16,918 nucleotides of DNA from an uncultured Senegalimassilia sp. (GTDB taxonomy: Bacteria; Actinomycetota; Coriobacteriia; Coriobacteriales; Eggerthellaceae), in NCBI GenBank assembly GCA_937925385.1, contig CALEWN010000154.1, positions 1 through 16,918 on the forward strand, given 5' to 3'. The position numbers were made by a program, and so were the translations under genes. The notes beneath the pieces are model-generated. The model did not search any database and was not told where the DNA came from. It saw nothing but the letters and a program-made list of their open reading frames with translations. How positions within the stretch are numbered: position 1 is the first letter of the stretch; each line of letters begins with the position of its first letter. Below are positions 12,150 through 16,918 of this stretch, in pieces.

Positions 12150-12782
12150 ATGACCATGTATGGATACGCAAGGGTATCAAGCAAGGATCAAAACCTGAAC
12201 AGGCAGCTCGATGCCCTGTCTGCCATTGGCGTTTCAGGGGAATCCGTGTTCGTCGATTATCTGAGCGGGCGTAACTTCGATCGTCCTGGGTATCAATCGC
12301 TGCTCGAACGTCTGCAACCTGGCGACGTGCTCGTGGTGAAGAGCATCGACCGCCTTGGCCGTAACTACGACGAGATACTCGGCCAGTGGCGGTTGCTTAC
12401 CAAACAGAGGGGCGTCGATATCGTGGTGCTGGACATGCCGTTGCTCGACACGCGCTCGACGTCCGGCCACGGGGTGACGGGGAAGTTGATTGCCGACATC
12501 GTGCTGGAGCTGCTCAGCTACGTGGCGCATGTGGAGCGCGATAACATTCGCCAGCGACAAGCGGAGGGGATCGCGGCAGCGCGGGCGCGAGGCGTGAAGC
12601 TGGGGCGGCCAGCGCTGGCCGTGCCCGAAGAGTTCGACGCGGTGCACCGCAAGTGGAAAGATGGCTGCTTGAACAGCCGACAAGCGGCGGAGTCGTTGGG
12701 GGTTTCGCATACGACGTTTCTGAAATGGGCAAAGCAACAGCCCTTTGACATCACAACCCCACACAAAACGATGCGTTCATAG
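12150..12782 (+). CDS. Serine recombinase (resolvase/invertase family)
   Basis: 210 residues from ATG 12150, with AAAGGAG 6 nt upstream; ATG 12156 is possible. It cuts and rejoins DNA at specific sites through a phosphoserine link. The N-terminal catalytic domain begins MYGYARVSSKDQNLNRQLD, with nucleophile Ser10 in the same place as in gamma-delta resolvase, followed by the conserved VKSIDRLGRNYDEI segment. The long E helix runs through LSYVAHVERDNIRQRQAEGIAAARARGVKLGRP. The C-terminal helix-turn-helix (NSRQAAESLGVSHTTFLKWAK, about 175-198) would read the DNA site. Length and order match small Tn3-type resolvases and Hin/Gin-type invertases. No transposase or inverted-repeat-bounded transposon is seen nearby, so it is either a remnant or a resident recombinase acting on a local site; it stands next to a pilus locus. 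Confidence 0.93.
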   Translation: MTMYGYARVSSKDQNLNRQLDALSAIGVSGESVFVDYLSGRNFDRPGYQSLLERLQPGDVLVVKSIDRLGRNYDEILGQWRLLTKQRGVDIVVLDMPLLDTRSTSGHGVTGKLIADIVLELLSYVAHVERDNIRQRQAEGIAAARARGVKLGRPALAVPEEFDAVHRKWKDGCLNSRQAAESLGVSHTTFLKWAKQQPFDITTPHKTMRS

Positions 12783-12832: not shown

Positions 12833-12861
12833 TAGACATTACTTGAGTGGTCGGCTATAGT
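12833..12861 (+). promoter_or_regulatory. Sigma70-type promoter for the pilus regulator/operon
   Basis: TAGACA (12833-12838) and TATAGT (12856-12861) are separated by 17 bp; each differs from the consensus by one base (TTGACA) or one to two bases (TATAAT). Transcription would begin near 12868, inside the palindrome at 12864-12882, giving a leader of about 140 nt before the regulator gene. Confidence 0.65.
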
Positions 12862-12863
12862 GA

Positions 12864-12882
12864 TTTCACTGATTGAGTGAAA
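12864..12882. promoter_or_regulatory. Operator-like palindrome at the predicted transcription start
   Basis: TTTCACT (12864-12870) and AGTGAAA (12876-12882) form a perfect 7-bp inverted repeat around GATTG. It covers the predicted start site of the promoter at 12833-12861, where a bound repressor would block initiation. The winged-helix protein encoded 125 bp downstream is an obvious candidate ligand (autoregulation, inference). Confidence 0.5.
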
Positions 12883-12887
12883 AGAAA

Positions 12888-12939
12888 CGGCCTGATAAAG
12901 CGCTATGCACTCCGAAACGAGTCGCGCTTTATCAGGCCG
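12888..12939 (+). repeat. 16-bp perfect inverted repeat in the regulator leader
   Basis: CGGCCTGATAAAGCGC (12888-12903) and GCGCTTTATCAGGCCG (12924-12939) are exact reverse complements with a 20-nt loop. In the mRNA this would be a very stable hairpin about 20 nt from the predicted 5' end. No T-run follows. It could protect the mRNA, bind a protein, or be a DNA site for the neighbouring recombinase. Confidence 0.85.
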
Positions 12940-12947
12940 AGAAGGCT

Positions 12948-12973
12948 GTAAGCAAACGTCTGCATTTGCTTAC
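12948..12973 (+). repeat. Second leader hairpin, 9-bp perfect inverted repeat
   Basis: GTAAGCAAA (12948-12956) and TTTGCTTAC (12965-12973) form a perfect 9-bp stem with an 8-nt loop, 8 bp after the 16-bp repeat and 21 bp before the regulator ribosome-binding site. Together with the first hairpin it gives a structured 5' leader. Confidence 0.75.
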
Positions 12974-13006: not shown

Positions 13007-13264
13007 ATGCGCAAGTTACATGAGGGTGATATTTCGCTAACTCCCACGCAGGAGCGTTTGCTCGGCTATATCGCCGCGCAAACGACCATGTCCGGTGCGG
13101 CGCGGGCAACGAAAAAGGAGTTGTCGCAGCTGATGGGCTGCAGCGTCAAGACCATCGACCGCGCCATCACGCGCATGAGTCGGGAAGGGCTTATCAAAGT
13201 CGAGCCATGCCATTCCGAAAACGGAGGGCAGCTTTCTAATACGTACAGCGTTGTAAATAGCTGA
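13007..13264 (+). CDS. Small winged-helix DNA-binding regulator
   Basis: 85 residues from ATG 13007, chosen because GGAAAGG lies 5 nt upstream. The frame is open to ATG 12905, but that start lies inside the leader hairpin and lacks a ribosome-binding site. After a first helix (LTPTQERLLGYIAAQ), residues about 33-62 (ATKKELSQLMGCSVKTIDRA) form a helix-turn-helix, followed by ITRMSREGLIKVEP and a short beta-wing (NGGQLSNTYSVV), as in MarR- or replication-initiator-like winged helices. There is no ligand or dimerisation domain, so it is essentially one DNA-binding module. It is the first gene behind the promoter at 12833-12861, 90 bp before the pilin gene on the same strand, so it probably controls the pilus operon and perhaps its own promoter (inference). 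Confidence 0.8.
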   Translation: MRKLHEGDISLTPTQERLLGYIAAQTTMSGAARATKKELSQLMGCSVKTIDRAITRMSREGLIKVEPCHSENGGQLSNTYSVVNS

Positions 13265-13354: not shown

Positions 13355-14869
13355 ATGAAAGCGAAAAAAGCAGCGTTAAGGCTATTGGTGTCCGCGATGC
13401 TCGTCGTGGGGTTGCTCCCCGTGGCGGCGTTGGCGGCCGATGGCGAGCAAGCGGGAGACGTAGAGGTCCCCGCGCAGGCGCAGGTGGGGGAGTCTGCCCA
13501 GGACCAGGCGCAGGCAAGCGCCGGCGATCAGGCGCAGGCCGATGGTGACCAGGCCGCAGCCCCTGCCGAAATAGCGGAAGCTACCGAGCCGACAACGGAC
13601 CAGGTCAACCCTGCCGTTGTAGCCGCAGCCGATGCTGCGGACGAGCCGACGACGGTGGCTTTCGGGACGGAAGATCTGTACTGGTATGCGCTTATACCGG
13701 GCAAGACGATGGATAGCGGGGAGGACCCTGATCAAACCTGGTTCGGTCTTGGCGTGAGCACGATCTCCGGCGTATACAGCCCGGGTATTTATAGTTCAGG
13801 CAAGGTGATCACGCAATATGGGAGCATCTCCGAAGTAGCCAACGACTCGAGCAAGCCGCTGTATCCGGACATCACGTTCGAGGGAACGACGTACAAATAC
13901 GCCAAAGCGGGTACCCCCGAAGCTTCGATGCAGGGCTATTACACGCTGTCGCCAGTTCGAGTGACGGTGGCCTCTGGTGCGAACGCCGGAAACAACAACT
14001 ACAACAGCACCAAGGGCTCTCTGGTCAAAACGTACCATTACGATCATGTCATGGTGCTGAATGAAAAAGACTACTACACCGTCAACTATGAGGTTCAGTA
14101 CGCCGGAGAATCCGAGTGGGTCGCATTAAAGGACTACGCTCAGCGTGTGGAAAACGGCTACAGCGAGTCCAGGCTTAAGAAGCCTGCGCGCGACAGCGAA
14201 GAGACCCCCGAAACTCAAACCGTCGATGGCGTGACGTATCAGTTCGATGGCTGGTACAAGGACGATGCTTGCACGCAGAAGGCGAACTTCGACGGCACCA
14301 TCACGCAGAACACCACCTACTACGCTCATTATATCCCGCAGTCGGGGAGCCTTTCCGTTTCGAAGAGCGTGACAGGAAGCGCTGCGAACGTCGACCAATC
14401 GTTCACGTTCGAACTGTCGTGCGCGGCTCTTGCGGGCAAGGCGTTCACCGCTGAAGGTGCTGTCAATTCTGTGGCATTCAACGATCAAGGCGTGGCAACG
14501 GTCCAGCTCAAGCATGGTCAGTCCGTCACGCTGACCAAGGTTCCCGCTGGCTCGCAGGTCGCCGTTCGTGAAACGGGCCTTTCCGGTAACGCTAGGACTT
14601 CTTCCACGGTTTCGGTCAACAACGAACCTTCCGAGATCGTTGCAACCGACGGCCAGACGGCTACGACGCCTAGGACGGCGACCATCGTCTCCAATCAAAC
14701 GCAAACGCTTGCATTCACCAACTCGGCCGAGGCGGTCTCGGCGACGGGGGTCTCGCTTGGCGCGGGCCCGATGGCGGGGCTGTTCGCAGCTGCCGCTGCG
14801 GGCGCGGGCGCTCTGGCCGCAAGCGGCTACAAGCGCAGGAAGCGTGAGCAGGGTGCTTGGAAGGAGTAG
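13355..14869 (+). CDS. Secreted, wall-anchored pilin/adhesin subunit (minor pilin candidate)
   Basis: 504 residues from ATG 13355 (GGAAGAGG upstream; the start begins a classic signal peptide, cleavage near ALA|AD at 27). Residues 30-100 are an Ala/Gln/Asp-rich linker with repeated DQAQA-type units. Residues about 101-285 are a distinct domain I do not recognise (tip or adhesin candidate). Residues about 289-327 (VDGVTYQFDGWYKDDAC and ITQNTTYYAHY) fit an InlB/Flg_new beta-repeat. Residues about 331-458 form an isopeptide-type pilin domain: Lys337 in SLSVSKSV, Glu406 in VAVRE and Asn456 in LAFTN are in the expected order. The C-terminus has VSATG (461-465) as a sorting-like motif, a hydrophobic segment (470-490) and a basic KRRKR tail. 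The motif departs from LPXTG. It shares KHGQS with the major pilin downstream, so it probably co-assembles with it. Confidence 0.85.
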   Translation: MKAKKAALRLLVSAMLVVGLLPVAALAADGEQAGDVEVPAQAQVGESAQDQAQASAGDQAQADGDQAAAPAEIAEATEPTTDQVNPAVVAAADAADEPTTVAFGTEDLYWYALIPGKTMDSGEDPDQTWFGLGVSTISGVYSPGIYSSGKVITQYGSISEVANDSSKPLYPDITFEGTTYKYAKAGTPEASMQGYYTLSPVRVTVASGANAGNNNYNSTKGSLVKTYHYDHVMVLNEKDYYTVNYEVQYAGESEWVALKDYAQRVENGYSESRLKKPARDSEETPETQTVDGVTYQFDGWYKDDACTQKANFDGTITQNTTYYAHYIPQSGSLSVSKSVTGSAANVDQSFTFELSCAALAGKAFTAEGAVNSVAFNDQGVATVQLKHGQSVTLTKVPAGSQVAVRETGLSGNARTSSTVSVNNEPSEIVATDGQTATTPRTATIVSNQTQTLAFTNSAEAVSATGVSLGAGPMAGLFAAAAAGAGALAASGYKRRKREQGAWKE

Positions 14870-15227
14870 AAAACGCGTTCCTCAAAGTATCCAGGAAGAT
14901 CGGCCGGTCTCGCTGCAGCTGATCGCCGACAAGCTGCAGCGTCTGGTATGGCGCCGACGCCTGTGGGGAATCGACGAGCGCCAGGCGTGGCATGTGGTGC
15001 ATCGCTTGGACGAGATGTACCGCCAGCTCTACCGGGAGCAGCAGATCCGCTACGAGGCCCTGCTGGAGCAGGCCCGCGCGGAGCAGCCGGTGCAACCAAA
15101 GCCCCAGGCTTCGAGAGCGCAGGCTTTGCAGGTGCCGCCGGTTCCCCAGCAGCCGATCCGTGTGCAGCAGCTGGTGGACCCCAAACATCACCGGCGCAAG
15201 AGGCCGAAGGGTTCGCACGGGAAGTAG
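14853..15227 (+). CDS. Coiled-coil, DivIVA-like short protein, possibly the N-terminal part of the signal-peptidase-like protein
   Basis: 124 residues if GTG 14853 is the start, overlapping the pilin gene by 17 bp; AGGAAG lies 10 nt before it, so initiation is uncertain and no ATG is available before residue 55. Codon use is clearly that of a real gene. Residues 21-75 (LQLIADKLQRLVWRRRLWG, then DERQAWHVVHRLDEMYRQLY) are helical and recall the DivIVA N-terminal pattern, in which a G-[YI]-D-E motif precedes a coiled coil. Residues 78-124 are Pro/Gln-rich, ending in a basic tail. There is no signal peptide or membrane segment, so on its own it would be cytoplasmic. The signal-peptidase-like frame continues in -1 register across its stop codon, suggesting that both may be one protein. 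A role at the membrane in pilus assembly is inference. Confidence 0.6.
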   Translation: MLGRSRKRVPQSIQEDRPVSLQLIADKLQRLVWRRRLWGIDERQAWHVVHRLDEMYRQLYREQQIRYEALLEQARAEQPVQPKPQASRAQALQVPPVPQQPIRVQQLVDPKHHRRKRPKGSHGK

Positions 15228-15229
15228 CG

Positions 15230-15766
15230 CAGGCGCCTGAGGCGCGCGTCATCGAGCGACGCGCCCAAGGCGCCGAGGCGCGAAGACGTGCGGGCGCCGC
15301 GGCGGCGAAGACGATTTGCGCGATCGGCGTGGCTGCGATCTTGCTGCAGACGGTGTTCGGGCTTGCGATCGTTCGCGGCGGCGGCATGTCGCCCGCATCG
15401 GGCGACGGCGATGTCGCGCTGACGTATCGGCTCGAGCAAACGTATTCAGCAAACGACGTGATCGTATACCGCGCCCAATCCGGGCAGCAGCTCATCGGCC
15501 GTGTGGTGGCGTTGCCCGGCGACGTGGTCGAGGTCACCGAAGACGGCACGTTCAAGGTCAACGGGAGCGCGCAGCCTTCGTCGAACGGTCAATCCACCGC
15601 GCCGGCTGAAAGCGGTCCGGCATATCCGTTAACGCTTGGCGAAGGGCAGTACTTCGTATTGGGCGACGATCGTATGCAGGCGGTCGATAGCCGCGAAGTT
15701 GGTGCAATAGGTATCAACGTGGTTGAGGGCAAGGTTGTGGCCCTGCTGCGACTGCGTGGGATATAG
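15230..15766 (+). CDS. Signal-peptidase-I-like protein lacking both catalytic residues (SipA-like pilus assembly factor); 5' end undefined
   Basis: The S26 signal-peptidase fold is clear: one N-terminal membrane segment (coded 15311-15373), then GGGMSPASGDGD, RVVALPGDVVEV and GDDRMQAVDSREVG. In the first box the residue before Met, normally the catalytic Ser, is Gly (codon 15383-15385). In the second, the Lys normally before RVV is also Gly (LIGRVVALPGD, codon 15497-15499). It should therefore be inactive as a protease. Streptococcal SipA, a pilus assembly factor encoded beside the FctA-type pilin, also lacks both residues, and the gene order here is the same. The coordinates begin just after the stop of the preceding ORF: in this frame there is no ATG, GTG or TTG between 14990 and 15329, and GTG 15329 would start inside the membrane segment. 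Starts at 14948-14987 would mean ~240-280 bp of overlap with the coiled-coil gene. It lies 27 bp before the major pilin gene. Confidence 0.82.
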   Translation, partial: QAPEARVIERRAQGAEARRRAGAAAAKTICAIGVAAILLQTVFGLAIVRGGGMSPASGDGDVALTYRLEQTYSANDVIVYRAQSGQQLIGRVVALPGDVVEVTEDGTFKVNGSAQPSSNGQSTAPAESGPAYPLTLGEGQYFVLGDDRMQAVDSREVGAIGINVVEGKVVALLRLRGI

Positions 15767-15793: not shown

Positions 15794-16819
15794 ATGGTTA
15801 TGTCTCGCTTGAAGAAGAATGTGGTTGCGGCGGCACTTGCTGGTTCCATGGTGATCGCTCTTCCGGGCGCTGCGTTTGCAACGACGGTTGAGGATAACGG
15901 TTTCACCGTTGACAAGACCTGGACTGCGGCGTCGAACACGCAGCTGAACAACACGGAAGCGTTTACGTTCGAGGTTCAGTTCACGGGCGCAACCGCGCAG
16001 GGTACCTGGACGCCCGCCGACCTGTCTACGGATAAGGTCGTGCGCACGCTGACGGCGGACTGGAAAACCCTTGCTGGCGCTGGCGCTTCAGCGAATGCCC
16101 GCCTGACGGCGAAGACCCTGTTTGCAGGCTATGATTTCACGGCACCTGGCACCTATAACTTCACCGTGAAGGAGATCGCCGGCTCGAACCCCAACATCGT
16201 GTATGACGGTACCGTCTACAACGTCGAAGTCGTCGTGTCCATGCCGGACAACTATCCTGCAAGCGACACGCCGGTTATCAAGGAGATCAAGGCGAAGGTT
16301 GCCAATGGCGATAAGGCTGACAAGGCCGCATTCGCCAACACCGCCAAGGCAAACGACAGCCTGAAGGTGTTCAAGAAGGTCGCCGGCACCGCTGCGAACA
16401 CGCAGGACGAGTTCAGCTACACGCTGAAGATCGAGGGCGCTCAGGGTTCCTACGACTACGTGCTGAACGATGTCGCCGGCACCTTTGATGCCAAGGACAC
16501 CCTTACCTTCAAGATGAAGCATGGTCAGTCCATCGAGATCAAGAACCTGCCCGAGGGTGCAACCTATACGGTGACCGAGGCCGACACGGATTACACCGAG
16601 AATTTCGCCGTTGATGACGGCCAAGCTCAGGCTGGTAAGGTTGCTACCGGTACCATCCACAAGGACAGCACGGTCGTCTACACCAACGAGAAGGGCTTCG
16701 CTCCGGCGACGGGCGTTAACTCCGACACCATGCCCTTCGTCTTCGGCGGCCTGGTGGTCGTCGCCGGCGCCGGCGCTCTGCTGATCTCCCGCAAGCGTCG
16801 CGCGAGCGAGGAATTCTAA
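15794..16819 (+). CDS. Major pilin, FctA/Spy0128-type with isopeptide-bond domains
   Basis: 341 residues; ATG 15794 or 15800 (AAAGGAAAGG just upstream serves both). It is exported (signal peptide to about residue 29, GAAFA|TT), polymerised by a pilus sortase and attached to the wall. Residues 35-185 match the FctA / streptococcal pilin isopeptide-linkage domain (PGTYNFTVKEIAGS at 118-131, IVYDGTVYNVEV at 135-146), with candidate bond residues Lys41, Glu127 and Asn182. Residues 188-300 form a second such domain: Lys194 in LKVFKKV, Glu262 in YTVTEAD, Asn298 in VVYTNEK. These intramolecular Lys-Asn bonds give pili mechanical and protease stability. The C-terminus has APATG (303-307) as a variant sorting motif, a hydrophobic stretch (314-331) and an RKRR tail. 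It is the last gene seen; a class C/B sortase is expected just downstream, outside the window. Confidence 0.95.
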   Translation: MVMSRLKKNVVAAALAGSMVIALPGAAFATTVEDNGFTVDKTWTAASNTQLNNTEAFTFEVQFTGATAQGTWTPADLSTDKVVRTLTADWKTLAGAGASANARLTAKTLFAGYDFTAPGTYNFTVKEIAGSNPNIVYDGTVYNVEVVVSMPDNYPASDTPVIKEIKAKVANGDKADKAAFANTAKANDSLKVFKKVAGTAANTQDEFSYTLKIEGAQGSYDYVLNDVAGTFDAKDTLTFKMKHGQSIEIKNLPEGATYTVTEADTDYTENFAVDDGQAQAGKVATGTIHKDSTVVYTNEKGFAPATGVNSDTMPFVFGGLVVVAGAGALLISRKRRASEEF

Positions 16820-16827
16820 TTGCGGCT

Positions 16828-16897
16828 AGCTGCTGACAGCTTCGGCAGCTATGGAGCGCGCAAGCCCACCCGCGCCCTGCGGGGGGGTTGCGCGCTC
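16828..16897 (+). terminator. Tandem hairpins after the major pilin gene (attenuator or terminator)
   Basis: A small stem, AGCTGC (16828-16833) with GCAGCT (16845-16850), is followed by a long one: GAGCGCGCAA (16854-16863) with TTGCGCGCTC (16888-16897), a perfect 10-bp stem extended by C-rich/G-rich pairing toward the loop. No T-run follows, so it may stabilise the pilin mRNA or partly terminate, lowering expression of downstream genes relative to the abundant pilin. Confidence 0.6.
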
Positions 16898-16918
16898 GAC
16901 CGTGCGGTCGTCTGGGCG

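Follow-up and report, generated by a model that had tools for sequence, protein, structure and literature searches.

The window analysed here, a 16,918-nucleotide stretch of contig CALEWN010000154.1 from an uncultured Senegalimassilia sp., carries part of a pilus operon in which a signal-peptidase homologue resembling streptococcal SipA precedes the major pilin. The genes run, in order, from a serine recombinase and a small helix-turn-helix (HTH) gene to a tip-type pilin, a small open reading frame (ORF), the SipA-like gene, an FctA-type pilin, and the first 99 bases of a sortase gene (Table 1). The nearest named genome is that of Senegalimassilia anaerobia JC110 (98% identity over the query), a member of the Coriobacteriia within the phylum Actinomycetota, in keeping with the actinobacterial host proposed by a first-pass annotation of the sequence. 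The corresponding JC110 locus (L001) has a tip-type pilin, the small ORF, SipA, an FctA-type pilin, a class B sortase, and a basal-type pilin. Read from the window as far as the sortase 5' end, and from JC110 for the remainder, this arrangement matches the pilus gene order of group A Streptococcus (GAS) completely, except for the interposed small ORF.

Table 1. Positions of the pilus genes and associated features in the window.
Feature	Position	Strand	Basis and remarks
Serine recombinase gene, resolvase/invertase type	12150..12782	+	PF00239, E 3.5e-33
Promoter-like site, TAGACA-17-TATAGT	12833..12861	+	10/12 consensus; all but the first base inside the inverted segment; faces the operon
128-bp segment inverted in JC110 relative to colinear flanks	12834..12961 (L001: 5541-5669)		Alignment
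Small HTH protein gene	13007..13264	+	ORF; start at 12905 or 13007; many HTH Pfam models, all below cut-offs
Tip/ancillary-type pilin	13355..14869	+	PF24547 and PF19407 above cut-off; C-terminal sorting signal by eye
Small ORF between tip pilin and SipA	14853..15227	+	Two predicted helices; overlaps the SipA frame
SipA-like S26 protein, membrane helix and signal-peptidase-like domain	15228..15766	+	PF10502; no recognisable start codon; the frame is open as far up as 14870
Gly codon at catalytic Ser position	15383-15385	+	Alignment
Gly codon at catalytic Lys position	15497-15499	+	Alignment
FctA-type major pilin, sorting signal APATG	15794..16819	+	PF12892, 36.2 bits (cut-off 22.1)
Class B sortase gene, 5' end, cut by the window end	16820..16918	+	Aligned with JC110 L001

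The SipA-like protein belongs to the S26 family, as the first-pass annotation had claimed, with matches to PF10502 (E 7.5e-20, 72 bits; cut-off 22.9) and TIGR02227 (88.7 bits; cut-off 47). Its motifs lie where that annotation had placed them, GGGMSP being encoded from 15377 and GRVVALPGD from 15497, on the plus strand and in the frame ending at 15766. HMMER and MAFFT alignments agree in putting glycine at both catalytic positions, and around these sites the S26 boxes are retained; both points had been read correctly from the sequence. Active type I signal peptidases have a Ser-Lys dyad, and the window protein has Gly/Gly. A sequence search of solved structures places Streptococcus pyogenes SipA (Protein Data Bank, PDB, entry 4n31; E 8.2e-27) ahead of active signal peptidases. 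Structure prediction, which the annotation had recommended, gives the same ranking, with 4n31 as the best Foldseek match (E 1e-11) to a model that has an N-terminal membrane helix at residues 2–38. These family and structure matches rule out a chance motif match. A sequence or assembly error can be rejected because JC110 carries the same glycine codons and frame layout, without gaps over the 1001 bp compared. The likeness to SipA that had been proposed holds for the closest structure, the gene order, and the loss of the dyad. In detail, streptococcal SipA has Asp at the Ser site and Gly at the Lys site, both in the alignment and according to Young et al. (2014; PMC4049620).

The neighbouring pilin proved to be of the FctA type, as annotated, exceeding the cut-off for PF12892 and also matching the LPXTG anchor model TIGR01167 (20.5 bits; cut-off 15.9). 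As read in the window it has no YPKN motif, and GAS FctA likewise lacks one, according to Young et al. (2014; PMC4049620). The tip-type pilin scores 37.1 bits against NF033396 (pilus ancillary protein 1), far under the cut-off of 600. Taken alone, the 33 sortase residues inside the window match no NCBIfam model. In JC110, the ORF at 9600-10388 of L001 is a class B sortase by TIGR03064 (153.0 bits, just below the cut-off of 153.75), and the small pilin after it carries a streptococcal isopeptide-linkage domain (TIGR03786, 44.5 bits).

The association between sortase and S26 protein extends well beyond these two genomes. A survey started from the sortase found 64 places at E 1e-25 or better in 297 genomes of the order. 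The figures for the Lys site are restricted to these places because loci picked by S26 score favour Lys-less homologues. An S26 homologue occurs within 7 kb of 40 of the 44 sortases above 120 bits, and near none of the 20 below that score. Three of the four without such a neighbour lie near a contig end (L114, L124, and L125), and the fourth (G329) has a Ser/Gly homologue about 8 kb upstream (L081). Sortase and S26 gene share a strand in 39 of the 40 pairs and lie on opposite strands in one (G039). One of the places below 120 bits, in JC110 itself (G001), likewise scores as a class B sortase with TIGR03064 (L145, 164.4 bits). As this second sortase has no S26 neighbour, SipA tracks a particular group within the class B sortases and not all of them.

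Comparison of orthologues at the pilus locus, as the first-pass annotation had recommended, reveals an intact dyad in none of the 40 sortase-linked S26 neighbours. Lys is missing in all of them, its site being occupied by Gly (19), Arg (19), Ser (1), or Ala (1). The Ser site holds Ser (16), Asp (10), Gly (6), Glu (4), Ala (3), or Thr (1). These homologues are spread over 20 genus codes, and they do not amount to 40 independent events because some are closely related; one genus code, for instance, accounts for all four Glu/Gly copies counted there. A sizeable sortase-linked group has kept Ser and replaced Lys with Arg (L112, L113, L092, L095, L096, L100, and kin).

A peptidase dedicated to the pilus and using different residues for cleavage would fit both the retained S26 boxes and the Ser kept in 16 of the 40 relatives. 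Such an enzyme is nevertheless very unlikely, given the universal absence of Lys from this set and a range of Ser-site residues that is not catalytic-like. In addition, streptococcal SipA shows no activity and tolerates mutation of its Asp and of a nearby Lys, according to PMC4049620. The same survey bears on another possibility, that the protein holds the signal peptides of the tip and major pilins, delaying the housekeeping signal peptidase, and is no partner of the sortase. Its predicted signal-peptidase fold would suit this task, and deletion of sipA from an S. pyogenes operon in Lactococcus lactis leaves pilin mostly in the membrane and cytoplasm (given as data not shown in PMC4049620). 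However, the gene tracks one class B sortase group (present beside 40 of the 44 close sortases and 0 of the 20 more distant ones), and we regard this explanation as improbable.

In the first locus set, eight S26 homologues have both Ser and Lys, and none of the stretches that contain them has a match to the JC110 sortase; this refers to that protein and the fetched stretch, as other sortases were not searched for. Read at the two sites alone, 24 of 28 family-scan matches are Ser/Lys, and the rest are Asp/Gly (L008), Ser/Arg (L011), Ser/Ser (L013, with one stop), and Asp/Ser (L014). An alignment of the query with 60 database relatives (61 rows) has Gly/Gly at the Ser and Lys sites in 29 rows, query included, Asp/Gly in 10, Ala/Gly in 9, and a gap with Gly in 7 (rows beginning past the Ser position). 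Ser/Gly, Ser/Val, Ser/Lys, Arg/Gly, Asp/Ala, and Gly/Ala occur once each. The single database relative with Ser and Lys together, P0044, is placed by a quick 77-row tree beside L097, which also has Ser/Lys and lacks a match to the JC110 sortase in its 13-kb stretch. In the Gly/Ala row, database protein P0059, the beginning of SipA seems to lead directly into a portion of an FctA-type pilin, and this protein would be either a deletion variant or an assembly artefact. As separate observations, one 13-kb stretch (L105, in G172) contains three Ser and Lys S26 homologues, two of them adjacent, and a search of genome contigs for related loci gave three, two being distant Acidobacteriaceae homologues.

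The history of the two sites was reconstructed from a careful tree of 104 rows, with the dyad columns left out and L013, which has one internal stop, dropped from an initial 105. All Lys-less rows fall on one side of one branch, with bootstrap and Shimodaira–Hasegawa approximate likelihood ratio test (SH-aLRT) support of 84/86. Lys changes once, as it does in 88% of 200 bootstrap trees, and Ser changes six times. The quick tree (77 rows, down from 79 after removal of identical or short rows) gives one change for Lys and seven for Ser. The simplest reading of these trees is that Lys would have been lost once, as the homologue became a pilus partner, and that Ser varied afterwards. This agrees with the report of Young et al. 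(PMC4049620) that polymerisation is unaffected when the Asp at the Ser site is mutated.

The gene itself is maintained. Changes between the window and JC110 in the SipA frame are synonymous in 24 of 27 cases in 15331-15763 and in 8 of 9 in 15228-15330, and because they are mostly synonymous, SipA can be regarded as under purifying selection. JC110 (G001) also encodes another S26 protein, L005, in which Ser and Lys are both present, so that the removal of signal peptides does not necessarily require SipA. If the gene were a housekeeping signal-peptidase copy in decay, this would account for the lost dyad and for the lack of a recognisable start codon in either the window or JC110. Such decay is, however, extremely unlikely in view of the synonymous changes, the separate Ser and Lys homologue in JC110, and the 20 genus codes in which Lys-less homologues accompany this sortase group.

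The window protein is thus SipA-like in several respects: it combines a membrane helix with a signal-peptidase-like domain, the dyad is gone, the genes stand in streptococcal order, and on the tree its group lost Lys once. It is a SipA-like protein in a new phylum, and its Ser-site residue differs at a site that is functionally silent in streptococci. Very probably it acts in the assembly of a class B sortase pilus as a factor of the SipA type, helping the sortase without cutting, in line with the non-proteolytic role that the first-pass annotation had argued for. By analogy with the streptococcal work, such a protein would not cleave its substrate and would lie next to the class B sortase in the membrane. 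A putative inherited peptide-binding cleft may hold a stretch of newly secreted pilin, either the signal-peptide end or the sorting signal, and the held stretch would let the sortase join pilins.

Several points weigh against this role. A SipA homologue in Streptococcus suis and Streptococcus agalactiae appears to have its dyad intact, as described by Young et al. (PMC4049620), so dyad loss is not universal among such homologues outside the Coriobacteriia. For S. pyogenes, PMC7900414 reports pull-downs in which SipA did not bind pilin or sortase. The structural model is least certain, with predicted local distance difference test (pLDDT) values below 50, at residues 47–53, the loop that bears the Ser position, and this limits what it can say about the cleft. 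Tree support for the single Lys loss is moderate and the streptococcal 4n31 row lies on a long branch; the tool also warned of long branches meeting for rows of the larger tree.

The start of SipA presents a separate problem. In both the window and JC110, the SipA frame contains no ATG, GTG, or TTG from 14987 to the membrane-helix codon at 15329, and upstream it stays open right through the small ORF. Homologues of this ORF occur in 10 of 42 sequences scanned, window included (L001 and L067-L074). It matches no Pfam family above cut-off, and its structure model has low confidence (pLDDT 62). Kinship with DivIVA was considered and is not shown, as the Pfam DivIVA model matched one of the ten members, at E 0.038. 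SipA lies in the -1 frame relative to the small ORF at eight of these ten loci. A canonical start is missing 33–80 codons before the Ser position in four of the eight (the window, JC110, L068, and L071, representing three lineages), and a usable start is present in the other four. Far starts inside the small ORF exist in L068 (at 110 codons) and L071 (at 115 and 128). Across all S26 frames of the fetched loci, 10 of 59 have no start in this interval. The six further cases comprise two cut by a contig end (L117 and L118), three that start 81–149 codons up (L077, L089, and L103), and L084, with starts only at 132 and 30 codons. In some database relatives, the predicted start is a few codons ahead of the membrane helix.

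SipA may have no start of its own: translation might begin in the small ORF and pass into SipA through a -1 frame change in the overlap, giving one longer protein with SipA at its C-terminal end, or a non-standard start might be used. The -1 layout and the start-less frames point this way, as does selection that seems to switch frames: between the window and JC110, 7 of 9 changes in 14988-15105 are synonymous in the small-ORF frame, and the linker at 15106-15224 is unconstrained (5 of 13 synonymous in each frame) ahead of the conserved SipA frame. The L071/L072 pair has a similar frame-to-frame pattern with a less clear change-over, and database protein P0002 is an in-frame fusion of small ORF and SipA, albeit a single sequence on a short contig. 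Counting against such a fusion, no classical slippery heptamer for a programmed -1 frameshift exists in 14860-15225 of the window or JC110. Only weaker tetramers are present, such as A_AAG at 15098-15101, which is kept in both. No tetramer of this weaker kind occurs in L067, or in frame from the conserved motif to the stop in L068, one of the four start-less loci, and the L068 case lowers the odds further. On balance, a fusion is unlikely; if real, it would join a cytoplasmic helical piece to the assembly factor.

Upstream of the operon, the locus has a feature that may govern its expression. A recombinase match at E 1e-5 was obtained only in the window and JC110 among 80 sequences (the window, L001, and 78 fetched stretches). 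The segment between this gene and the HTH gene with the pilus operon is identical to JC110 in 116 of 129 columns when inverted, against 60 of 160 in the same orientation, and its 200-bp flanks are identical at 169/200 and 190/200. A perfect 16-bp hairpin lies inside it. The promoter-like site is the only one reported in the region and is suggestive only, because 0.6 such sites are expected by shuffling against the one found. The like site in JC110 (9/12) is on the minus strand, facing away from the operon. Judged from the two sequences, the segment is likely an invertible promoter element forming a phase-variable pilus switch, and the orientation of the sites is suggestive of ON in the window and OFF in JC110.

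These results carry SipA beyond the streptococci into Coriobacteriia of the gut, and the literature matches listed include no paper on SipA-like proteins of this class. They also provide a rule for the Coriobacteriia, in which the S26 neighbours of one class B sortase group are all Lys-less (40 cases) and the Ser site is variable. This pattern suggests that catalysis was abandoned a single time, when the pilus partner arose, and that the Ser-site residue is functionless. Dozens of natural variants are thereby available for mapping the residues needed in the sortase partnership. Of these findings, the Lys rule and the start problem might come as a surprise to a specialist.

Among known systems, the window protein can be compared with type I signal peptidases such as LepB and SpsB, with which it shares the S26 fold and boxes. 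Unlike these enzymes, it is without catalytic Ser and Lys, and its gene accompanies that of a pilus sortase. The SipA homologues of S. agalactiae PI-2b and Streptococcus pneumoniae PI-2 are related to signal peptidase, belong to pilus islands, and are needed for assembly according to PMC7900414; the resemblance here is by description rather than by sequence comparison. The counterpart in S. pyogenes is SipA/LepA of the FCT-2, -3, and -4 pili (PDB 4n31 and 4k8w), which likewise combines a signal-peptidase fold with a membrane helix, lacks the Ser/Lys dyad, has Gly at the Lys site, and stands in the same gene order with an FctA-type pilin and a class B sortase. The window protein differs from it in having Gly, not Asp, at the Ser site, no recognisable start codon, and a host in the Actinomycetota, and its locus differs in the extra small ORF and the upstream recombinase and inverted segment.
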